This document shows, piece by piece, positions 27,250-58,900 of a stretch of 64,000 bases of DNA (position 1 is its first letter; every line of letters starts with the position of its first letter). The notes under the pieces are model-generated. The model was not told the origin of the DNA. It saw only the letters and a list, made by a program, of their open reading frames with translations, and did not search any database. Origin of the DNA: Capitulum mitella (lineage: Eukaryota > Arthropoda > Thecostraca > Pollicipedomorpha > Pollicipedidae); NCBI GenBank assembly GCA_030062745.1, contig CP099843.1:20489583-20553582 (forward strand), given 5' to 3'. The position numbers and the translations under genes are program-made.

Positions 27250-27423
27250 GTGAGGCTGTTTACCAGGCCACATAATGCAGCGCACCTGGGCTATTCGTGA
27301 GTGGGTTCAGGTATTCTGGTATTTGTTTAAGGGAATATTTTTTACAAAATTTCTGGGTATCCTGCATTTTTCTCAGCAAAAGAGGTTCTTGGCATTTCAT
27401 GGTGCTTTTATTGCATGAATTCG

Positions 27424-29033
27424 GCAAAAAATATTATTTTTATATGGTTGTACTGTGCAGTTACCATATATCTGTGCTGTGTGATGAGTGCACTATGCCC
27501 AGTAAGACTTGTGTGCCATTGTACTTATGTGTCTGCATTTTTGAGAAAGTATTACTGCAAAAACTCACCTTAATGTGCATCTGTGGTCAGTATTAAAACA
27601 ATGAATCAGCTAAATGATCATGAGCAAATATTGTGAGCATTTATTATGAGCATGCAATATGAACATGCACTGCAGTCAGTGGTCAGTAGGAGCACTCAAA
27701 AGAACTGAGGCCCTTGCTGTCATTTGTCAATTTTACTGATTTAAGACATGTATTTTTTTTGTTCCTTCTATGCAAGCATGAGGAGTTCTTCTCTGACCAA
27801 TGCTGGCCTGTCCTCTTTAAATCCATGCTTATAGACACTTTGGCTATTAACACACTACTGTTCTGATAGCCCAGAGCAGTTTAAATTATTCTGCCTTTTA
27901 AGTAATTACTTTAACCCCAGGCACATAGCAAAAAATTGGCTAAGGGCGCAGGTCATCAGAAGTGGACTGCTTTACCCCAAGGGGGGCCTCCTCAGCAGAA
28001 CTTCACAAAAAGTGCTGAGGTGGGCTATAGCCCAAAAAGTGGCTTAATCATTTCCAGGATTCTCCTTTAGTCCAAAGGGGCCTCATATAGCTTCAAGGAA
28101 GCCTCCTTTTGCACCAAGGGGCCTCCTAAAACATCAGGGGACCCCTGATAGTTTCAAAAGACCTCCTATGGCACAAGGGGCCTCTTGTAGCATCAAGGGG
28201 GCCTTCTGTATCATCCAGAGACAGGGTTGGAAATTTGGTTTTGGTTTTTGGTGTCAGACTAAGAGTTTTGTTTTGCAGCACAAAATTTTGCAAACAGTAA
28301 TACTGGTTTGAGTTGGTGTTCTTAGTGCAATTCAGTTGTGACTTCACACGTGTGTCTTACTGAATGAACACAGAACATTTTCGTGCTGAGTTAGAAATCT
28401 GTCAACATGGTTATAATGTAGCTTCTTGATGGAGGCACAAGATCAGACTTTTGGAGTACAAAAATGCTTTTGGATCACATATTTTCTGGTGTTCTTCAAC
28501 ACCAAAAAACAGTGCCTTTTCCAACCTTGTCCAGAGGTCTCCTGTGGTTTCCTATGTGACTCTCATAGGCACATGAAGGGCCAGCAGTGGTCTCAGGGAC
28601 CATATTTGGGAATCCTGTAAGCTCTCACAGGGGTTGAAGCGGTCCCTGAAAAAGACCTCCGTTTTGTGGGAATAAGATGGAGAACCCTCCAGAGCCCCCA
28701 TTTTTATCTTTTCCTGAGGGTACTCCCCCTTGCTCCCCTGGCTACATCTCTGAACATTACCAGCTGTTTTGCAACAAGTTGTAATGGGTAACAGGATGTC
28801 TGCTGTTGTGGGGAAATGACCCATGAATGTTGAGATGCTCCAGAATTACATAGTTATCTTTCACACAGTTTTTTTCTTAAAAGTAAATTTCCACTCACAC
28901 AAATATATAGTGCTCAGTATAGTACAGAAGAGAATATCAGTGCCCATTGGCCACCCATATGCCTTACAGCAAAACCCCATTTTGAAATTGCTATTCTTGA
29001 CTTATGTTTTGATGCTTTGTGCTTAGACAGGGG
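27424..29033. other. CpG-poor tract in the presumed WDR70 first intron
   Basis: Reading by eye I find only five CG dinucleotides (near 27947, 28349, 28382, 28640 and 28660) in 1.6 kb, with abundant TG and CA. CpG frequency is normal before and after. This is the expected scar of long-term germline cytosine methylation. No coding exon is seen. Confidence 0.7.
27990..28235. repeat. Degenerate ~29 bp AAGGGGCCTCC array
   Basis: About eight diverged units built around AAGGGGCCTCCT(A/T)...CATCA, with units near 28073, 28105, 28135, 28160, 28175 and 28196. It lies inside the CpG-poor tract. Confidence 0.6.
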
Positions 29034-30379
29034 TCGACAGTAATGTGGTTTTCTCTGTTTACCTCTAGGTCCAACATAATCCTGTTCTCGAATGCCATTT
29101 GAAAGCAACAGATGAAAGGCTAAGTCAGTCAGTTCTCGAACGTGGCCCAGGTAACGCCCATTTGAGTCGGGCTTCATGGCGCCTGGTGGATGCGGCGGGC
29201 GAGACCTCACGACTCTGCTCCAGCCAGGATCATGCCACCTCCCTCTCTCCCTGCTGTTAGCCTCAGTACAGGTTTTTGTCCACCCTACTATTGATTATTA
29301 TCAGCATGCCAGTGAGGGTCAACGCAGCCGCGTATCCAAGGAAGTGGCGAACTGCTCTGTTTATGGAGGCAAACAGTGGTTTTCCTTTATTTTCTCAGCA
29401 AATGTTTGGTGCAGGCAAATTATTGCTTGTGGGGCACATGCAATCTGTTTACATTATATAACATGCAAAATGACAACCCCAGAGCTCATAAACAACAGAG
29501 ATATGGTAGTTTTTCATGTGGAGTTTAATACGTACCATTACGTCTGTGGCCACGTTTACTTGCCAGGAGATGAATCTATATTTTTATGGCCATTTGCGCA
29601 TTTCAAGGGTTTTTTCAGGGATGGCATGCAGCATTTATGTATTACTTTTTGGGTCCCTTTTAAGTTTCAAAAGATGTTTGTATGCCTTTACCAAGTGTTG
29701 AAAGGACCACATTGCAGCAGTTTCTACAAAGTCATCAGAAAGCTAAATCAGCATTGTATTATCTGCTGTTCTAGAGCTTATCTGTGTGCTGTATTTTGCA
29801 TGCATGATTAATGAAACTAAAAAGGAAAACTGCAATAACACATCTCACACACAAAACTTGTGCAGGCATTGTAAATATTCCACCAGTTCAAGACCATCAG
29901 CACATTCCTGTGTGACAGTACATGAATAAAACACCTACGAATTCGAATACTTTGAAATTCTGCCCATGACTAGCTGTCAGTTCATTTGGCCCGTTTTGTT
30001 TTTGTGAACGACGATGTAATTCCGCATACAGGAGTTCAGTCATATGCTATCCGTAGATGTGTCGAATTTTGTTGGCGGGTATCTGATGTGTGCACTGTCA
30101 CTGTGCACCGGATCACATTGGGCTGCTAATGTTTATGTTCAGACTGCCCAGTTGGGTAAGACGGACCGTTTGAAATAGGCCGACGGCATGGGTCTCGAAA
30201 GCAAAGGAGGAAAGGAAGTAAATGGTCTTGCCGAATGGCGAGGAAACAACGTGTGCTTGTTTTCTTGTGTGCCTGCTTATTCACCTGCATGAAACATTTT
30301 ACCCATCTGACTTTTAATCAGACTTGTCTTTTTGCCGACGCTGTGCAGCGGTTGTTGCTGACCTGTGTGCCCGTTTCAG

Positions 30380-45700: not shown

Positions 45701-48700
45701 GAGGTACGCGGCGAACAAGGATACCAATGGGCAGCCCAAGGTGACGAGCATTCGCTGGTCTAGAGAGGAACGAACAACGGTAGAGAGTGTTTTCCCTCGC
45801 CCTACAAGAGACAATAGAATAGACAATAGAAATGTTATAAACCATCCTTTTGTCCTGCATATTTCAGAGGTGGCAATGGGTGACAACAAAATATGTCCCG
45901 TTCCATCCGTGTCGGTACTTCGTGGTCCAGCCCTGTTTCCAGCCCAACGTTATTCGAAAGTTATAGCCAAATATGGATCAAGGTCGACATTTCAGCCGAC
46001 ATACCAGTTTCTTGTATTGCAAAATAACTCACAAGGCTGTTAAAGTAAGGTGTGATGTTAACGAATTTTTCAAAGCACAAAAGAAGTTAAGCTCATTCAT
46101 CCAAAAAATGAAAAACGCACATTTTGACTGTCGTTACCTGGTTTCATTCCGAGTTCACGGCACACGTGGACATTTTAGATAAATACCTAAACCAAAGAAT
46201 GACCCTCAACATGACCTTTGCCCGGAAGTTCCATCTCTTAGTGGTTTTCAAATAGCTGGAGAGGAATCCCCTCCCCCTGCCATCTAAGGAACATTGGTAG
46301 CAAGCTACACTAGACAGGGATCACGGAAAAGCTGATGAAGACACCAGTCACCTAGATGACATTTCATGACGAAAAAACGACTGCTGGGGGGTGGGAACAA
46401 TGAGACTGGGGGAGGAAAGCACATCACGGGACACAGCGCAAGAGCAAGGCGTCTAAGAAAAAGGGAAATCAATCTCAAAGGCAGTGTTGCAAAAATGCCA
46501 CACGAAGAAATAGTTTCTACATACTAGACTGAGACAGTCCTCATAACGCACCCAATAAAGCACCAAATGGACTACAATTGAATGAAGCCACGGGTCACGG
46601 CACACCACGACTCGATCTACAATTAACATAACATATAGGGAATCAGGCCTCACCTTAAAGTTCATTGTGTTAAAGTCGCGGCCGACCAGGTTGATGACCA
46701 CGTTCGAGTGTTTCACTGCCTTGCGGATCGCGTCGGGGTCGCGCAGGTTGTAGTGGCAGAAGACCACCTGGCCCAGGTCCCCGGCCAGCTTCAGGTGGCG
46801 GACGTCATAGTCGTCGCCTCGATAGGTGGCCACGATCTGACCAACGGCGACACGCCAGTCACTCGGCCGGTCTGGTGACGCCGCCATAACGTACAGTGCC
46901 GGTCTGATGACCCCGTCATACGGTACAGTGCCTGCCTGGTGACGCCGCCACACGGTACAGGGCCGGTCTGATGACCCCGTCATACGGTACAGGGCCGGTC
47001 TGGTGACGCCGTCATACGGTACAGTCCCTGCCTGGTGACGCTGTCACACGGTACAGGGCCGGTCTGGTGACCCCGTCATACGGTACAGGGCCGGTCTGAT
47101 GACCCCGTCATACGGTACAGGGCCGGTCTGGTGACGCCGTCACACGGTACAGGGCCGATCTGACAACGCCGTCACACGGTACAGGGCCGGTCTGGTGACG
47201 CTGTCACACGATACAGGGCCGGTCTGGTGACGCCGCCACACGGTACAAGACCGGTCTGGTGACCCTGCCATACGGTACAGTGCCGGTCTGGTGACGCCGC
47301 CACACGGTACAAGACCGGTCTGGTGACGCCGCCATGCGGTACAGGGCCGGTCTGATGACCCCGTCCAACGGCACAGGGCCGGTCTGGTGACGCCGTCACA
47401 CGGTACAGGGCCGGTCTGGTGACGCCGTCACACGGTGCAGGGCCGGTCTGATGACGCCGTCACACGGTACAGGGCCGGTCTGATGACGCCGTCACACGGT
47501 ACAGGGCCGGTCTGATCTGGTGACGCCGTCACACGGTACAGGGCCGATCTGACAACGCCGCCACACGGTACAGGGCCGGTCTGGTGACCCCGCCATATGG
47601 TACAGGGCCCGTCTGATGACCCCGCCATACGGTACAGGGCCTGTCTGATGACCCCGCCATACGGTACAGGGCCGGTCTGGTGACCCCGCCATACGGTACA
47701 GGGCCGGTCTGGTGACCCCGCCATACGGTACAGGGCCTGTCTGATGACCCCGCCATACGGTACAGGGCCTGTCTGGTGACCCCGCCACAAGATACAGGGC
47801 CGGTCTGGTGACCCCGCCACACGGTACAGGGCCGGTCTGGTGACCCCGCCACACGGTACAGGGCCTGTCTGGTGACCCCGCCACAAGATACAGGGCCGGT
47901 CTGGTGACCCCGCCACACGGTACAGGGCCTGTCTGGTGACCCCACCACAAGATACAGGGCCGGTCTGGTGACCCCGCCACTCGCGGCACACACGATGCGA
48001 CGCCGCTGTTGCGGGCGGAACGGACGATCTGACTTCATCATTACGTTATTAACCACATGGCGCCGACTCCGAGGTCACGCCTGCAGCAATCCTTAGGGAG
48101 GTCTGCCTCAGTGACGCCAGGCGACAATCCCACCGTTCGCGTCCGCAGTGCGTCCTGAACCCGCATTCGGCCGGACACTGACCTGGGAGCCAGTCTTGCC
48201 CAGCCTGTTGACGACGTAGCGTCCGAGGAAACCGGTGCCGCCGAACACGGTGACCACCTGGCCGGAGAAGCTGGAGCGGCCGCCACGGCCCCGCTTCAGG
48301 TCTGACAGCCGCGTGGTGGGCAGCACATCCACCTCGCCGGCCGAGGCCACCGAGGCGTGACGACAGGCCACCAGCGGTGCCCGGCTCCCTGGGCGGCAGT
48401 CGGCCCGCGGTCAGACCGCGCCCACGCACAGCCTGGATGGTGCTACATACATAACTCACACTGTACTTAATTAACCCCAACACATCTGATTCTACAATAT
48501 TTGCTAGCTCTAACTCTATTCCCGTACATATATCGGAAGGACGTATTCCTGTAGGGAGGAAGGGTTATTCACCCTCCCATGAGAAGAACTTCCTGTCGCT
48601 TTTGATCACAATGGCAATGGCAATCGGCTCGCCATGATGTTAACTTCATTTTTTACACAAAGCCATTTTTTGAGGGGTGGATATATGGGGGCAAACATGA

Positions 48701-51192
48701 GGTATTTTCTACATCTCATCACTCTGGTGTATACATACTGATTTTGATGTAGTTGACATAAATCAAGAACTAATTGACAAAGTTTCTATTTTTGGCCCAT
48801 ACCTTTATAATTCTGAGAAAATTTATAGGCATTCAGAGGCCTTGGAAAATGGTACAAGTATTTTTCTGAGAGGTGAATAAACATTTAACTTTAAAATCCT
48901 CTTAAAGTTCTACTAGTCACTATATACACATGACGTTCAAATCGAGTTACACTGTTTGTAAAATGTTGGCATAAGCAGTGCCAGGGGCATGAAAAAGAGG
49001 AGCCATCATTGTCAAACTTCATTGCATCAACTTATGACCTTTGACCTTACATGAACTGAAATGACCTCAGTGTTATATGGAATGGCTTTGACTTTATTTC
49101 TCAGTGTTTGAGAATGTTTTTGTTTACTTGAATTGACCACATTTTCAAAAGTCCTGTTTAGGACAGTCATGATACAGAGTATGCATACAGACATCTTAGG
49201 TCATAGCTCCATAACCTGACCTCAAATCAAACTGAAACCTGAGTCACAAGAAGAGGGCATTTTGTTGTATCATATACATTCCAGATTCTTACTTCCAATT
49301 AAGTGTCAAGGATATTTACATCAACCAATTTTTGACTTCTGACCTTGATCTAACCCATGACTAGAGATCCTGAGGGTTGAGAGTCCAGATCCCCCCCAAT
49401 ATTTGGGAATTTTGACATAAGGCCTATGGCAACAACTGAAGAGAAACAGTCTGACATCTTACATGAACCCCCAAGAATTCAGAAATCCCCAGCCATGATC
49501 TAACCTTGTACAATGACCTCAGATTAAAAAAATTGCAATGTTGCTCATTTACTGAACTCTACACTCATGCAAAGTTCTAAGTTCTATCTTAAAACTCCAA
49601 CTGCCTTTTTGACCTTTAAACAGTGCCAAAAATGGCCTGAGGTGCCTCCCAAAAATTTGGCCTGGCTCTACATCAGGTCAAAATGAAATTATGAAAATCT
49701 GAGATTATACAAAGAAAGAATAGATGCAAGAAGTGACTATGTTTCAGGACAATGCTCCAAAAAGAACCAAAAATGGCAAGGGAAAAACTGGAAGGTGATA
49801 CAAGGATATGCACAATGCTAGGGTCAAACTTAATTTCAAAATATGTATTACATTCCAAACCCGACATTAGAGGCATCAATAATGCTATGGTCACATGCAC
49901 TACAATGGGCATACTATTTTGACTTTATCTGATTTTTTCCTCAATGATCCATCTCATGCCAAATGAACCCCTGCACCTGCATTCAATTGCACACCTGAGA
50001 CCAACAAAACATGTACCTGAACTATAAGATACACCAACAGAATTTCACTGAGTACTGCGATGTTTTCTGCTGTCACTGAAAATGCTTTTCATATGCTGAA
50101 GAATGGCAAAAGAGGATAGCCTGCAATCAGGGTTATGTTCATGGTTATAAAATGGATATTGCACAGATAAAAGCAATATGGGATTGAAATACTTGGAGCT
50201 GTGTATGGACTATGGAGTACAGAGCTAAAACCTCTGGGATAATAACTATAGCCAGGGGCAGCAGCACACAGTTTTGCTTGTTGTATGGTACATGGATCTG
50301 ATTTAGCCAACCCTTCCCCAAATCAACAGTTGTCAGATTTCAACTGCTTACCTTTAATTTTCAAGGAATTTTCATTTCAATTACACATAAATGCAGATGG
50401 TTTAAAGTGCATTGATTGTGTCAACTACTAAAGTAATTTTCTTAACATATCAGCATGATCAAGTTTTCTAATTTCATCTGAAAAATCTGATGTGATATCT
50501 AAGAATGAACCAGGTCACACATCTCATAGCAGTGTACTTACATTCTGATGTATACACAAGGGAGCCAGCCTTCAAGTTTAAGGACCAACCCAGCCTTAAA
50601 GTTAAGTCTGATATGAGCTGGAACAACAGGCCTCACAACCTTCACAATTCCTGACAAATGACAACTGTAGGTAAGGTAGGTATTCACTTTCCTCACCAGA
50701 TTGTGCATCTGCACTAAAATACATGCTCCCTCCATGGTTGTGGGGAACAGTCCCCCACATTCTGAAGGTTGTGGAAGCCATGTCCTCCTTGTCTGCCTAT
50801 GTTGCTGCCCCTGACTACATCTAACCACCTTTCATGGACATGACCATATGCAATTAAAGGTGGTAATTATTACAGTACATTGTACTACATTTTTCTTCAT
50901 TACATTATAGTGTATGACATTATAAGACTATGTCATGTTCGCTTCAATGGGACAAATGTCATGATAGAATGGTACTTATTTTTAAGTGATAACAGCACTA
51001 CAAAGGAATAATTCGGCTACCTTTACAACGAGATTGTCAAGCAATGCATCAATGTGATGGCAGCAGATGGACTGCTGGCATTTCCAACGCTCCACATCCG
51101 CCTGTCCTACCTACAATCAAACCAAGGTGTCTGCAAGGATGGCATTGCTCACCTCCCAAAAGCTGGCAATTTTTCAGTAACGACGCCGCCAT
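42789..51192 (-). CDS. NDUFA9: NDUFA9, mitochondrial complex I 39 kDa-type subunit (7 exons)
   Basis: Exons in transcript order: 51192-51153, 48388-48183, 46836-46654, 45470-45226, 44637-44476, 43691-43505, 42962-42789 (TGA 42791-42789). All phases agree and the product is 398 residues; the human protein is 377. Residues 1-35 ([14 protein letters not shown], then Arg/Ala/Ser-rich) look like a mitochondrial presequence. The Rossmann motif GGTGFLG is at about 63-69, followed by [24 protein letters not shown], the D-x-F-G-x-E-D-R-F-like stretch [10 protein letters not shown], and [14 protein letters not shown], all hallmarks of this atypical SDR subunit. It binds NADPH and stabilises the matrix arm near the quinone site; it is not thought to catalyse a reaction. 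Intron 1 (2.8 kb) contains a decayed transposon and is CpG-poor. Introns 2, 5 and others hold minisatellites. The gene is head-to-head with the FASTKD gene and converges on WDR70. No canonical AATAAA is obvious after the stop. Confidence 0.94.
42964..43330. repeat. Degenerate GACTGGGACA/GACTGTGACTG array in NDUFA9 intron 6
   Basis: Loose short-period array of GGGACAGGAGACTG and GACTGTGACTG words, without a fixed unit length, next to the exon 7 acceptor. Confidence 0.55.
43702..44197. repeat. 42 bp minisatellite in NDUFA9 intron 5
   Basis: About 12 copies of a 42 bp unit (ACGTCAGTGACAGCCGGCGC...). The array begins within about 10 bp of the exon 6 acceptor (43692-43694). Because 42 is divisible by three, open frames run through on both strands (a 14-residue repeat such as [14 protein letters not shown]), but these are out of frame with exon 6 and are not genes. 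Confidence 0.95.
45580..45700. repeat. Short tandem duplication in NDUFA9 intron 3
   Basis: Two to three diverged units sharing GAAACATGGATACCAATGA and GAGGAAATACA, starting about 110 bp beyond exon 4. Confidence 0.7.
46865..47980. repeat. 32 bp minisatellite in NDUFA9 intron 2
   Basis: About 35 copies of a 32 bp unit (GGTACAGGGCCGGTCTGGTG + ACSCCGYCAYAC). It begins about 26 bp from the exon 3 acceptor. Variants (TGGTG/TGATG, CCGTC/CCGCC) are interspersed. Since 32 is not divisible by three, open frames in it cycle through all phases; they are repeat translations. Confidence 0.95.
48515..49830 (-). mobile_element. Old, CpG-depleted copy of the TTAA-flanked element (copy G) in NDUFA9 intron 1
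   Basis: It begins CTATTCCCGTACAT and keeps the family's block order in inverted orientation: GGCATGAAAA, ACCTTTGACCTTACATGA, TTAGGTCATAGCTCCATAACCTGACCT, ACTTCTGACCTTGATC, and the GGTGCCTCCCAAAAA block near 49640. It is strongly diverged; most former CG sites read TG or CA. Boundaries are approximate. Confidence 0.6.
48945..50939. other. CpG-poor tract in NDUFA9 intron 1
   Basis: By eye I find no CG in 48945-49861 and none in 50060-50939. Only isolated sites lie between (near 49862 and 50058). CpG is normal beyond 51180 and before 48630. No exon is seen here. Confidence 0.75.
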
Positions 51193-51999
51193 ACTTGCGA
51201 CCTGCAGTCCTTCCTGAGGGCCCGTAACCCTCGCCGCCCCCTTGCCCACCGATCTCCAACCCGCGCAACTTATCGTCGACTGCCGCTCATGGCCTGAAAA
51301 TTGCCTACTTTTTTATTTTTCGGTGGTGCTGAATAATCAACTATCGATTCTCGCAGACAACCGCGACTTTTATACAGAATTTGTTTCTTATGCTATCATT
51401 AGTACGATTTTTAATCAGATTTGCTTGAGCAGCATCACTAGAAAACTACACCTGCGTTGACATTTGTTTCACGGACAGTTTCTCAGAAATAGCCGAGGAA
51501 AAGCGTGATGTTTTAAATCTCTCGAGTGAAACCAAAGCATACCATGCAAATGAATAGCAGTGAGTGCAAAGTAAATAGAGGCAGAGAAGCAACCAGGATT
51601 GCTTTAGTTGCCTGCAAATTACCTGAACGCGTACACACAATTTGGATTTTTCATTACAAATGTACGGGAATAGTTCATCGCGGTCATATCGACGCAGGAT
51701 AACTAGCAACAGCTGGCCACAATCGCCCACCTAACGCTGGAAACAGTAATGGTTACGAAGGATACGAAGGCTTGTTGTGTCTTGCCCAATCCATTCCGGG
51801 AGTTGTTACGTCATGTGGACGGACTGAGGCCCGACGGGACATAAGAATTGATTCAAGATACGGGTGCTTGAGCCTGAGAGGCTCTGCGTCTTCACAACAA
51901 TAACTGTTGCGTCATGTTTGCGGGCTGCGAACCAGCGAGTGATTCCCCGCGTGACAAAACACCGTAGACGTGCCCTTGGGAGTGGAATTGCGGTCGGTG
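51153..51999. promoter_or_regulatory. Probable bidirectional promoter between NDUFA9 and the FASTKD gene
   Basis: The NDUFA9 start codon exon (51192-51153) reads leftward. On the plus strand a donor-like CGGTCGGTG|GTGAGT at 52000 could end a 5' non-coding exon joining the FASTKD acceptor at 55941. CpG content is normal only in this interval (about 51180-52254), with CpG-poor tracts starting on both sides, as expected for an unmethylated promoter flanked by methylated gene bodies. I see no clear TATA box. Confidence 0.45.
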
Positions 52000-52255
52000 G
52001 TGAGTGATGAATTTGAGTATAACTGTTCAAGATGGATTGCATCATTTCACAGGAAGCAAGAGTTATCTGTCTGTCATGTATGAGCGGGGTTCCCGGATGG
52101 GAGTTGGATTGGGGTTACCAGTGGAGCTGTTGTGTGGTCAGGGGTGGAAAGGACAATTCTTACGGTTTCAAAGAAATATAATTTTTCATTAAGTTCTTTT
52201 GCATTTGTGTTCAGTGGTTTATTTTCCAGACCAGCAAATAAATTGTCAGAATCCG

Positions 52256-53813
52256 AAGTAAAATTTAATTTAAAAGCATTCTAGGTTACATAGGAGAGAT
52301 GTGACATGGATTAGCACATGGGTTAGAAATAGTTGCTTGTGATTGGATATTTTTGTGCATGCATTGCCTTGGTTTCTCAGAATTCCTGGGGTGGCTATCC
52401 ACTTTGATGTTCATTGTGGGATAAGAGTTAATGGGTGTTCAGGGATGGAGTTGAGATCATCCTTATTGCAGCATGTGGCTTTTGTCCTTGTACTCAAACT
52501 CTGGATGTTGTGTGTATTTTTGGCATTAATGAGGCATTGCATGGGTGTGCCATCAGAAGCACTCTGAATCCTTTTGTGTGCCTTTGTGGCATAATGCATA
52601 GGATGGGTTTATCATTCAGAACATAATTGAGCCATAAGTGGTTTGTGATCTGATCTGACAAGTGATCTGATGAGACCAAAAGCCATACCACTTGATTCAG
52701 TATCAGAGATAACATGACAATAATTGGTATTCCAGGTGCAGGCTTCCCACTTCTCATAACTAAAAAAAATCCACATAGTTACCAAGTTACCAAACTGTTT
52801 GGGTGCCAGAAGATGTGCAGTTGAAATAAATAGGCCAATCCCAGGCATTTAGTCCCTTGTCACCATCACCATTTCCTCAGACTAGTCTGTTAAAGTGATT
52901 CACTCACCCACTGCCTCAACAAGCATGGAGCATCTCTGAGAAAGATCAACATTAACTTCTGAGCATTGACTGTTGACAACCTGTCCTTTGACAAGGACAA
53001 GTGCTGTGAAATATGAATCACTGAAAGACCTATCAAAATGTGGCCTGAAACTCAAAATAAGCTGAGATGACATTGGAACTGGATGGAGGTGAACTGGGAC
53101 TGAACAAGAACAGACATGAGTGCTTGGGAGGGAAAGGGACAGACAAGGAAACTGTGCAGTGCAGAGGTATGGAGGGCCTGGATGAGGTTAGGAGAGAAAT
53201 GAGGACTAATGGAACAGGCATGGAAGAGTATTAGGACAGAATGGTTAAAAGGGACTGGGCATGGAAAAGGACAAGCAAGGGAATGGAGATGGGACAGGGA
53301 CAAGTGAGAGGGATGGGGCTGTCTTTGTTGAATATGTTTGAATGGTGTTTGAATGAGCCAAATCTGGTTCTTGAGATAAACAGGTCCCTAGTGTTAAGGG
53401 ACCCCCCTCAGTCAGCACTAGGGTAAAATGGCAAATGCCTTTTTTTTGCAAATGCTAGATAGCAAATGCTAAATGGTAACATGTAAAAATGGCAACATAC
53501 TAAAATGGGGAACAACCAAATGGCAACATGTAAAAATGATGATATGCCAAAATGGCAAACAGCCAAATGAAAAATGGCTCAATGGCAGCATGTAAAAAAG
53601 GAGACATACCAAAAGTGCAGATGGCTAAATGAAAATGGCTCAATGGCAGCATGTAAAGTCATTATTTGGAAATGCCAAATGAATGTATGGAAAATGGTTG
53701 ATAATGGATAAACAGATAGTGCAACCCCATGCCAGGGGACCCAAATGCTTGATCTTACCCCAGGACATAGGGTAGTTGTTTGAAGCTGCTTACTGCATCC
53801 TCCACCTGTCAAC
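52256..53813. other. Tract with no CpG dinucleotide
   Basis: I find no CG dinucleotide in about 1.56 kb, bounded by CG at 52254 and 53814. Base composition is otherwise ordinary (mid-40s percent GC). It covers the left arm of the large inverted repeat and lies in the presumed first intron of the FASTKD gene. Confidence 0.85.
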
Positions 53814-55755
53814 GCAGCATTTAGCAATGTGGCTGCAAACAAAATCAAAATGCAAACAAAATCAAAAGATAATCAATAACCCTCATCACTGTCAATCCCC
53901 TTCCCCCAAAAGAGCATCATAGATGTTCGCCTGTGTCACGTGGCAGATTTGTAGGGAGGCATGAAAGAGTCCTCTGCATTGTCTGTCCACCTCCACCCCT
54001 CTTGCTCTTGCCTGTCGTGCCAGGGGACCACGGAGCTGAGGTACTTTATTTGGTCCAGGCTGCCCAGACTGCTTTAATGCATCCTTACGCATTGCCAATA
54101 CCTACTAACAGCCCCTCCAGGCTTTCCGTAATGAAGGCCGTCGGTGGTTAAGTTGCACTGCTGGACGATGGGTTTAAGGTACATGCTGCAAGGTCTGATT
54201 GACATTAATCTGAGCCCAAGTCCATGTAGGTAAGCCATTCAGGTATAATATATACTAAGAAATGTGGTCATTTTGTCATTTGCATTTGTCCTTTCGCCAT
54301 CTCAGCATGTCGCCTTTTTACATGTACTCGTTTTGCCGTTTGCCATTAAACGTTCGTCATCTTATCCTCAGCCTTAGTATGTCGTTTTTTACGTGTCACC
54401 ATTTTGCCGCTCGTCATTTTGGCATGCCGCGTTTTGAACTTGTCGCCATTTGGACATTCGCCATTTGACCATTTGACATTTTGGCATGTCACCATTTTAA
54501 CATGTGGCCATTTCGTTGTTCATCATTTTTCCAGTCCCCATTTGAGCGTGTTGCCATTTTTACATGTTTTGTCGTTCGCCATTTGGTCAGTCGCCATTTT
54601 AACGAATCGTCTTTTTCCATGTCATCATTCAACATTCGTCATCCGGCGTTCGCCAAAAAGTCATTCGTCATTTTTGCGTTTCGTGATTTTCTCCGGACAC
54701 CCCCCTCCAGTCTGTGGAAGGTGATGAAATATCCCAGTCAGTGCCGGGTTAACGGTCTCGTCCAATATCCCATCATTGCGCCAATACCATTTCAGTCTGT
54801 ATTTGGTTCTATCCCATGATCCTTGTTCCTCCCCTCTGCCTCTCCTTCTCCCTTCTGCCGGTCCCGTCCCGCAGGGGAACAGTATGGAGTAGGACTGAGG
54901 AAGAGGGACTGTAACAGGACAGGGACAAGGAATAAATTGGGATGGGGCTGGGAAGGGGCGGGGCAGAAAGGGCCGGAACAAGGACTATGGGATAGAAGCA
55001 AATACGGACTGAAACGGGACTGGCGCAATGATGGGATTTTGAAGGGGACCATTATCACAGCATTGACTGGGTTATTTCATCACCTTCCACAGACTGGGGG
55101 GCCTTTAACACCCCAGCCTTTGTTTATTTCGAGAATCAACCGCACGATTCGGCGCATTCAAACACCAATTGTTAGACCAGTCCCCCCACTTGTCTCTGTC
55201 CCGTCCCCATTCCCTTGCTTGTCCCTTTCCAATCCAGTCCTTTTCACCATTCTGTCCTAATACCCTTCCATGCCCGTTCCGTTAGTCCTCATCTCTCTCC
55301 TAACCTCATTCAGGTCCTTCATACCTCTGTACTGTCTCAGTTTTCTTGTCTGTTCCTGTTCCCTTCCAAGTACTCCTGTCTGTCCTTGTTCAGTCCCAGT
55401 CCACCGGCCTTTCCCGTTCCAGTACACTTTCAGTTTATTTCAAGTTTCGAGACGGACACGTTTTGATAGGTCTTTCAGTGACGTCATATTTCACGACACG
55501 TTTGTCAACCGTCAACGCTTAGAAGCTGATGTTGATCTGTCTCGCGGAGATGCTCGGTGCTTCGAACTCTTGCTTGTTGTTGACGCGGCGGGTGGTTAAA
55601 TTTCAAAAGATTATTTTGAGCAAGCGATGTTGGTGAGAAGACACTTAATGCCTGTGATTGGCTTGTTTTTTTTTTTAATTGCGCATCTTTTGGTACCCAT
55701 ATGACTTGGTAATTACGCGGATTTTTTCGTTATGAGAAATGGGAAGCCTGTGCTT
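52738..55755. repeat. ~3 kb imperfect inverted repeat with short loop
   Basis: Left arm about 52738-53690 pairs with right arm about 54260-55755 in reverse complement. Examples: AGGCTTCCCACTTCTCATAA at 52740 with GAGAAATGGGAAGCCT at 55733; CACTGAAAGACCTATCAAAA near 53022 with its complement near 55468. The centre (about 53700-54250) is unpaired. The right arm also contains a 400 bp fold-back insertion. Both arms include matched purine-rich (GGGACAGG) and AAATGG-type low-complexity blocks. No coding potential. Confidence 0.8.
54700..55101. mobile_element. Fold-back element inserted in the right arm
   Basis: Two arms of about 180 bp mirror each other around about 54900. The ends read CCAGTCTGTGGAAGGTGATG at 54707 and the complement CATCACCTTCCACAGACTGG at 55078. 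The left arm of the large inverted repeat lacks the insertion, so it arrived after the inverted duplication. It resembles a fold-back MITE. Confidence 0.75.
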
Positions 55756-55941
55756 AGAATACGCAATAGTTTTCATCATGATCAAGTCAGAGAGATAAAT
55801 GTCTGGGTTTAACATGAAGGGGATCTTGATAAAAGTTGGTATGTGGCCCCAACCTTTGATCAGTGCAACAACCCCAGCATGTTTAGAATGCCTGTATTGT
55901 GTTGACATAGCGTTCAGTAAAACCATTTTTTACCATTTCAG

Positions 55942-58900
55942 GAGCACATCCAGCGCTGAGGCTTCAACAGAACTAATTGGGCACCATGGCATCTCACCGT
56001 GCGTGGCTGTCAGCAGCCCAGCTTTCCCGTCACTTCTTCAACTCGGCACGATATGTGCGGCCCAACTCTGTGGTGCCAGACAACTCGGACCGGCCGCCGC
56101 CGGCGCCGGGCCTGCCGGTCGGTTCGCTCCTGCCGCTGTTCACGTGCGTGCCGCCGCCGCCGCTGACGGCGCCGGCCCCGTCGCGCCCGCTCGCGACCCA
56201 CCTGCCGGCCGGCAAGAAGTTCCGCGAGTCGGAGAACGAGTTCGCGCACGAGGTGATGTCGCGGCTGCCGGCTTACCGGCGCACGCTGCATTACCACGTG
56301 CTGGGGGCGGACCTGGCGGTACCGGGCGCGCGGCCGCCGGCCGAGCCGGCCAGCTGGGGCGCCGAGGCCGCGCGCCGGCTGGTGGCCGCCATGGGCCGGC
56401 TGGCCGTGTCGCCGGAGCGGGCGCCGCCGGCCGCCGCCGAGCCGGAGCCGGACGCGGAGCTGGCGGCCCGCTGCTGCCAGTACTCGGACGAGCAGATCGT
56501 CCTGCTGCTGGCGGCGCTGCTCTCGTGGCCGCCAGCGCCCGCCCCGGACGCGCTCAGCTGGCGCCGGCTCTGGCAGGCGCTCGACGCCGAGTGCTGCCGC
56601 CGCCTGGTGCGCTGGGAGGCGGAGCGCATCCTGCTGGTGGCCGACCTCTGGTACCGGCTGCAGCTCAGCCGCCTGACGCGCTACAGCGGCCTGATGCTGG
56701 AGCAGTTGGGCGGCCGGCTGAGCCAGCTGACGCCCGCCCAGCTTGTGCAGTACCTGTTCTTCGTCAACCTGTCGCGTCGGCTGAGCGCCGTCCGTCAGGT
56801 GAGAGGTAGGGCAGGTCCCTGCACAGACTGCAGGTCTGTCCGGTAAGAGGCAGGGCAGCTCCCTGCACAGACTGCAGGTCTGTCAGGCGAGGGGCATGGA
56901 ATGTCCCCGCACAGACTGCAGGCTTGTCAGGTGAGAGACAGGACAGGTCTGCACAGACCGCAGGTCTGCTGGGTGAGAGTTTAGGCATGTCCATGCACAT
57001 ACTGCACGTCTGTCAGGTGAGAAGAAGGTCAGGCCCCTGCACAGACTGCAGGTCTTATGATGAGAAAGAGGTGCTGGGTCCTGTGTTGAGTACAGGCTGG
57101 TATGGTGAGAAACAGGGAAGGTTATGCCCAGGGTGCGGGTCGCTACACGAGCTGTAGATTTGTAATTGTATGTCTGTGGTGGTGAACCCTTTGCGAACTG
57201 GATGTGTGTCGTGGGGTGACATCGGTCGCCAGTTCCCGTGCTTTACGACATTGCGACTAGTGATGGACAGCGTCGACGGTCAGAACTGTATTTGATATTA
57301 CTGCGTTAGCTCGGGAAAATAAATCAGATGATAAAGCAACAGTGCTATCATTGACTGTGCCTTTACAGCTGTGTGTTGTAGGTCTCGGAGGTTGTCAGCA
57401 GTGTTTGCAAAGCCATTTCATGTCAGCATTGCTGCCCGTTGTTGGTCTGTGTCAGTCTCTTCTTTTCCGTTTTATTCAGTTACGTCAGGGCATGACATTC
57501 ATGTTGCAGGAGTATCGCCGAACAAACTCGTCATCACTCTGCAGGATCAGTGACTCTTTGCGCCCCTAACGTTTCGGCCGTAGCACGATTTGCTGCCGTG
57601 TGCAGGGTGGCCAGTTGTTTAGTCGGCTGCTCTGCTGCTGCCGTGACTCATGCGCCGGTGTCATTTCAGGTCGATCTTGAGCAGAAGATAATGGAGTGTC
57701 TGCCGCTGCTGTCCATCGACGAGCTGGGCATCATCTGCATGAGCTTCTTCAAGACTCGTACGCCGTTGCGTTCGGACGACCTGGTCGACGCCGTGGTGTT
57801 CAAGCTGCTGCACTGCGTGGAGACGGCCAAACCGGAGACCGTGTGTGCCGTACTGAAGCTGCTGCGTCTCAGCATCCCGGCCCGACGCTGGCAGGTGGGT
57901 CCCAGGGGCTGCTGGAGATGGCAGATGGGTCCCAGGGGCTGCTGGAGATGGCAGATGGGTCCCAGGGGCTGCTGGAAGTGGCAGGTAGGTTTTAGGGGCT
58001 GCTGGGGCTGGTGGGTGGGTCCCAGGGGCTGCTGGAGATGGCAAATGGGTCCCAGGGGCTGCTGGAGGTGGCAGGTGGGTCACTGGGGCTGCCGGAGCTG
58101 ACGGGTGGGTCCCAGGGGCTGCTGTAGCTGGCAGGTGTGTCATACGGAGGGAAATGATTGTGGGATGTGCACGATGACTGCCATGATCGTGGGGACCGAC
58201 ATTTCCTCCGTAACCTGGTAAGACATCTTGGAACTCCAGTCCATTTTGTAAGACCGTCAGTGGATTTGAATATTGTCATGTCAATCGGGGTCCGGCTTTT
58301 CGGACCAAAATGCCCATGCCTTCCATAAAGACAACACGATCCCAACTGCGCCACCACAGCGCAGAGCTGCACCGGAGTTAGCCGACCTAGGAGCTCCCAT
58401 GAGGATATTGCCTGTGAAATCCCACCTGCTTGGCGTCTTTTTCACCGTGCTGATTGGCCCCGTTAGGTGATCGAGCGCGTTTATAACCGCCTGCTGCCGC
58501 TGGCGGACGGCTTCAACTCGCTGGTGCAGCTGCACCTGCTGCTGCTGGGCACGCAGGCGCTGGTGCACCACCCGGCCGCCGTGCTGCAGATCACAGCCCG
58601 ACTGCACGGCCAGCTGGCCGACATCCGACTCAAGGTGAGTTCACTGGCCGCCCCCTGCTGCGACGCTCAGGTCACCTCAAACCTGCAGTGGTCCTGCTCA
58701 CACCAGGTTAATGGGGGCTGCTCCAGGCACACCAGGTTTACGGTGACTGCTGTGGTCATATCAGGCTTGCAGTGGGTTGGCTTTCGGTGGCAGCTTATGA
58801 AACCAGGCTTACATTGGTCCATCTGGACACGCTAAGCCTGCAGTGATCAGTACTGACCTGCGTGTCGTTTGCTGGCTCCGCTTCCTTGGCCGGTAACATC

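Follow-up and report, generated by a model that had tools for sequence, protein, structure and literature searches.

CpG-specific loss in the promoter-proximal arm of an inverted-repeat transposon within the likely first intron of a FASTK-like gene of Capitulum mitella

Genes and inverted-repeat element at the locus

The window analysed here is a stretch of 64,000 nucleotides from Capitulum mitella (assembly GCA_030062745.1, contig CP099843.1, positions 20,489,583 to 20,553,582 of the forward strand), and all positions below are counted from its first letter. On its minus strand lies NDUFA9. The second exon of this gene begins at 48388, and its best match to the NDUFA9 chains in solved complex I has an E of 1e-14. 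The coding part of exon 1 (51153..51192) runs from the ATG at 51192 to the donor GTGAGC at 51152. The two exons join in frame into an NDUFA9 N-terminus, and a CpG-depleted tract at 48647-51002 therefore falls within NDUFA9 intron 1 (48389..51152), most of which it fills, with 5 CpGs against 401 TG and CA dinucleotides. This tract ends about 260 bp short of the CpG-rich exon 2.

A FASTK-like gene is likely to lie divergently from NDUFA9, on the plus strand. Its likely intron 1 (52000..55940) is bounded by consensus sites: a donor, GTGAGT, at 52000, which is the one match within 51800-52320 to the donor pattern used, and an acceptor before 55941. Directly after this acceptor comes a coding frame of the gene, and downstream of it a FAST_1 match whose E of 0.0004 does not reach Pfam's cut-off. 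The gene models differ in what they rest on, an in-frame splice for NDUFA9 and consensus splice sites for the FASTK side. The long coding frame of the FASTK-like gene ends in a segment (56775-57000) of five tandem units spaced by 42-44 bp.

The FASTK-like gene would carry an inverted-repeat element in this likely intron 1. A left, promoter-proximal arm (52714..53406, plus orientation) is followed by a block of short ATGGC-type repeats (53425..53700, plus), a non-palindromic centre (C1, 53700..54262, plus) that served to orient other copies, the inverted partner of the short-repeat block (54262..54690, listed on the plus strand), which belongs to the part that kept its CpGs, an inner palindrome (C2, 54703..55101) and a right, promoter-distal arm (55096..55776, minus). 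The two arms are 72% identical, and a longer alignment of them reaches 52708-53415 / 55783-55090.

The element belongs to a repeat family with long inverted arms that is dispersed in a genome of 477 Mb in 16 contigs. Each query returned 849-1346 first-look candidates, 40 of which were scored per query, and we examined 32 further loci beyond the window, mainly retrieved with a CpG-rich query. In the first 29 of these, 37 arms reached at least 600 bp, 25 with 24-34 CpGs and 12 with 0-18. In a number of other copies, the centre was not found. The element is a dispersed long-inverted-repeat (foldback-like) transposon without a recognised coding domain. It resembles the foldback or long-TIR DNA transposons by its long inverted arms and inner repeats, its GGTATTC-like termini and possible target-site duplications of 8-9 bp, picked out by eye and mostly mismatched, in the window copy and at L009, L021, L022, L029 and L030. 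As a difference, no transposase was found in the window copy, none of whose eight open frames has a match in Pfam.

Loss in the promoter-proximal arm is CpG-specific

The left arm contains no CpG and the right arm 31. This is the contrast that the first-pass annotation had described, and the three pairs of sequences that it quoted are all found in the arm alignment. Its inverted repeat is real, but the start that it gave, 52256, is off, the left arm beginning about 450 bp further right. Its view that the left arm is the one nearest the presumed promoter agrees with the signs of a promoter nearby, namely the ATG (51192) and donor (51152) of NDUFA9 exon 1 and the candidate FASTK-side donor at 52000.

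When substitutions are tabulated by CpG context, the arms differ at 22 of the 50 columns occupied by a right-arm CpG and at 72 of the 596 others (Fisher 1.2e-7). The differences are concentrated at CpG sites in the sense of being enriched there, since by absolute number most of them (72/94) are non-CpG. Ancestral states were set by the base most common among 35 CpG-rich arms that belong to other copies. The left arm retains none of its 18 scorable ancestral CpGs, which have become TG (9), CA (5) or something else (4); another 10 of the 28 ancestral sites are unscorable there, including one whose C and G are aligned but non-adjacent. The right arm retains 21/28 (left versus right, Fisher 2e-7). 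Meanwhile, non-CpG divergence from the family majority is equal in both arms (left 45/565, right 40/592, p=0.50), as are non-CpG C>T plus G>A changes (15/253 and 21/265, p=0.39), and mutation outside the CpG context is disfavoured as the cause. With 14 of the 18 lost sites now TG or CA and ordinary change the same in both arms, the loss in the left arm is CpG-specific.

Outside CpGs, A>G plus T>C changes are more frequent in the left arm, 52714-53406, than in the right (16/309 versus 6/324, p=0.03). This excess might be linked to transcription or be an effect of the reference.

The edge of the CpG-poor tract lies inside the transposon

Most of the window has close to the expected number of CpGs. 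The clear CpG-poor tracts are at about 27.3-29.0 kb (and 29.6-29.9 kb), 48.6-51.0 kb and 52.3-53.9 kb, with a weaker one at 2.3-2.9 kb. The HMM places the tract of interest at 52277..53894, with 1 CpG in 311 CG/TG/CA sites; it takes in 437 bp of the left flank of the element (0 CG, 90 TG+CA) and then the left arm with the short-repeat block that follows it.

Within 52277-55800 the best split falls at 53928 (2-lnL interval 53781-53928), with 1 CpG per 315 CG/TG/CA sites to its left and 81 per 359 to its right. A sharp boundary had been placed near 53814 and an edge does exist at 53781-53928, but it is not a split between neighbouring host domains: it runs inside the transposon. Indeed, the 164 bp of right flank between the element and exon 2 (55777..55940) are CpG-poor again (1 CG, 31 TG+CA), poorer than the element's own right-hand rate (p=0.003-0.005), so the contrast arises within the element and a host-domain boundary at 53.8 kb is disfavoured. 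Minus the element, the intron would measure about 880 bp, with CpG-poor sequence to either side of the insertion; the distal part of the element is therefore a CpG-rich stretch in a CpG-poor intron.

Several other copies show the same polarity

Element ends could be set by hand in the window and in 21 of the 32 fetched loci; at the others (L016-L019, L026, L028, L032, L033, L036, L038 and L039) they were left unset, and several of these had one arm missing or broken. One locus, L037, was dropped from the comparison with flanks for want of a right flank, which left 20 loci and the window. Over these 21 elements with hand-set ends, the CpG content of the element tracks that of its flanks (rho 0.69, p=0.0006).

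The direction of the host gene was given by homology in six copies: FAST_1 in the window, GTP_EFTU at L021, APC_rep and Arm at L022, ASTER at L034, Dymeclin at L012 and, on the minus strand and with the element reversed to match, PPME1 at L027. Pfam's cut-off is not reached by FAST_1 in the window or by either of the two Dymeclin matches at L012. All six elements precede the coding exons that were recognised, and in all six the promoter-proximal (5′) arm retains the smaller share of its CpGs (6/6, window included; one-sided sign test 0.016), by a small margin at L027 (3/17 against 8/27). L030 and L035 were left out of this test because they had been oriented by CpG layout and not by homology; Pfam scans of their frames, and of those of L014, found no host gene.

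At L012 the element is reversed. There, the arm on the C2 side retains 1/26 CpGs and the other arm 13/23, and the stripped arm is the counterpart of the right arm of the window. This reciprocal copy speaks against a CpG loss intrinsic to one of the arms.

Some copies run contrary to the general trend. The DNA on the left side of L024 and L025 is CpG-free (0/59 and 0/61 sites), but the elements themselves have a normal CpG content. The nearest relative found for L025, among 40 scored, is 84% identical; on this sequence comparison a recent insertion is not evident, and the age of the copy would be bounded from above only. The left edges of these two copies (L025:4301-4309 and L024:4135-4137) fall within 8 and 2 bp, respectively, of the end of a CpG-poor tract, with CpGs retained. 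Conversely, L034 combines a CpG-poor element with a CpG-rich left flank (15/55); the 5′ arm of this copy is split in two.

In six copies the CpG-poor stretch is 1306-2382 bp long; that of the NDUFA9 intron measures 2355 bp. A pure distance ruler counted from the promoter does not fit by itself, as short copies mostly lose the outermost sites of the far arm, which are the most distant ones.

A CpG-dense core is retained in far arms

In far arms of CpG-poor copies, a CpG-dense core is recurrently retained. In the right arm of the window it occupies 55441..55587 on the minus strand (arm positions 196-342) and includes the palindrome TGACGTCA. The core was spotted first, and its later test used the states of these same arms. 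Ten of the 15 CpG-poor arms retain 10-80% of their sites; in these ten, retained CpGs form a cluster that is strongest at arm positions 213-239 and extends more broadly over 196-341 (circular-shift p=0.0005, 2000 shifts), which speaks against uniform partial decay.

The arm-pair analysis covered seven loci and the window, L014 being excluded as its core is absent from one arm and its host direction unassigned. In the seven other CpG-poor two-arm copies, two of which (L030 and L035) are oriented by CpG layout alone, the 3′ arm retains 52/90 CpGs in the core and 18/96 outside it, and the 5′ arm 4/76 and 7/85. A replicate held apart, L040, which played no part in defining the core, retains 6/26 in the core and 0/25 outside (p=0.023).

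Retention also follows local CpG density. Across the 15 CpG-poor arms, rho is 0.66 for density within 25 bp (p=1e-4) and 0.46-0.48 within 40, 60 and 100 bp (p 0.010-0.013), whereas in CpG-rich arms density does not predict retention (rho -0.05 to -0.21).

Discussion

CpG loss is the usual scar of germ-line DNA methylation, and in vertebrates the CpG decay of transposon copies records it. Our comparison is alike in that copies of one repeat are compared across locations to read past methylation; it is unlike in that two arms of a single insertion differ, with a polarity towards the host gene that several copies share. Vertebrate CpG islands, as dense CpG clusters, escape decay. The core described above recalls this protection by density; it differs in being a cluster of about 150 bp inside a transposon arm, which survives mainly in the far arm.

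Domain searches suggest that the genome encodes the machinery required, with domains of both DNMT1 and DNMT3 type: DNA_methylase (PF00145) matches on contigs C2 and C4, a DNMT1-RFD match on contig C2, on the same strand and about 20 kb from the PF00145 match, and an ADD_DNMT3 domain on C11. With the APC-type domains, those of DNMT1 and DNMT3 type fit an animal genome.

The layout is close to the mosaic gene-body methylation of invertebrates as work on Ciona (PMC3827831) and on arthropods (PMC7343188) presents it, with an unmethylated promoter and a methylated transcribed region in broadly expressed genes. Among the arthropods of PMC7343188, exon methylation is reported to be the higher in the majority of species, two crustaceans showing little difference between exons and introns. 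The locus departs from this exon bias (PMC7343188). Here CpG loss affects NDUFA9 intron 1 and the likely first intron of the FASTK-like gene, while the coding DNA adjoining these introns has a CpG o/e of 0.94 (NDUFA9 exon 2) and 1.06 (FASTK-like exon 2). In these two genes, the exons are less CpG-depleted than the introns, whose tracts are near 0, which is not the mark of exon-targeted arthropod methylation. A search of titles and abstract openings, not aimed exactly at arm-to-arm CpG contrast in inverted-repeat transposons, found nothing on it.

We consider it probable that germ-line methylation near the promoter erodes the transposon from its 5′ side and that CpG-dense DNA resists. The element would have inserted in the short first intron of the FASTK-like gene, CpG-poor on either side. 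Immediately downstream of the promoter, some 1.3-2.4 kb would be methylated in the germ line, as we infer from the CpG loss. As methylated CpGs deaminate, the promoter-proximal arm, having landed inside this tract, would have lost all its CpGs. The far side of the element would have stayed largely unmethylated, aided by its methylation-resistant CpG-dense core. Methylation, its timing in the germ line and density as the protecting factor are all what we infer from the sequence pattern.

It is possible, although we hold it to be unlikely, that the core and not promoter distance sets the pattern: by binding a factor or acting as a promoter, it would protect its surroundings only when facing against host transcription. 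This reading overlaps with erosion from the 5′ side, and the two probabilities are not to be added to one. It is consistent with retention of the core in 3′ arms (52/90) and its loss in 5′ arms (4/76), where its orientation is opposite, with the loss of most sites outside the core in both arms (two of the seven copies being oriented by CpG layout), and with the palindrome TGACGTCA that the core bears. A close analogue comes from Ciona, in which, according to PMC3827831, a transgene inside an intron retained a 5′ patch free of methylation although the host gene was methylated. Against this, the 5′ arm is always both nearer the promoter and inverted, orientation and distance being inseparable here, and CpG density alone predicts retention too. 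In its strongest form, in which a promoter-like CpG-dense core acts as an orientation-dependent barrier that blocks intronic methylation when facing against host transcription and fails when facing along it, the proposal is doubtful. If it were true, inserted copies would carve lasting unmethylated holes in methylated introns.

The history of the arms bears on two further possibilities. The first-pass annotation had supposed that both arms started as the same sequence, which is not borne out: in the topology of a tree of 52 arms the two arms of the window are not sisters, and they are 15% apart at non-CpG sites. They had therefore probably already differed before insertion. A sounder control than the pair is the same arm in other copies. 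Ten other copies have an arm of the window-left type, identified by the centre, and in nine of them it is CpG-rich, with 27-34 CpGs (L009, L010, L011, L013, L014, L015, L016, L018 and L037); the tenth, at the CpG-poor locus L012 itself, has 16. The CpG loss is therefore specific to the locus of the window.

It is improbable that gene conversion with a CpG-rich donor copy renewed the right two thirds of the element, or that this part arrived in a later insertion, either of which would have shortened its time for decay. Copies are numerous, and at L009 the two arms group together in the tree, as some conversion among family members would explain. However, the terminal branches of the window arms are long and similar (left 0.076, right 0.093), their non-CpG divergence is equal, and the closest relative of the right arm among the 40 scored copies is 85% identical. 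A loss of CpGs without methylation, by strand-biased deamination during transcription or by a repeat-directed mutator, is very improbable: the A>G plus T>C excess of the left arm speaks for it, but non-CpG C>T and G>A changes are not raised there and the intron sequence next to the element is just as free of CpGs. Finally, the descent of the left arm from a CpG-poor subfamily, with a difference older than the insertion, would suit the non-sister arms and their 15% non-CpG difference but is scarcely credible given the CpG-rich arms of its type in 9/10 copies and a depletion that runs 437 bp beyond the arm into the left flank.

If methylation near the promoter does erode the transposon from its 5′ side, a repeat that places the same CpG-rich sequence twice per insertion, at many sites, is a natural reporter. 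Each copy would show how far methylation reaches and which DNA resists it, with non-CpG sites as the clock. The whole family, with 849-1346 first-look candidates per query, could serve to test from sequence, ahead of any experiment, why gene-body methylation starts and stops where it does.

Other sequence features of the window

The third clear tract of the window (27345-29029 and 29616-29924) precedes a plus-strand gene whose WD40 matches fall at 34.4-37.0 kb and which, by similarity, is probably WDR70. By its position this tract would fit the intron-1 pattern. Within the same region, the segment 35001-35500 has a CpG o/e of 1.51; its translated frames are full of TGPDR-like repeated units, and it is therefore probably a short tandem repeat.
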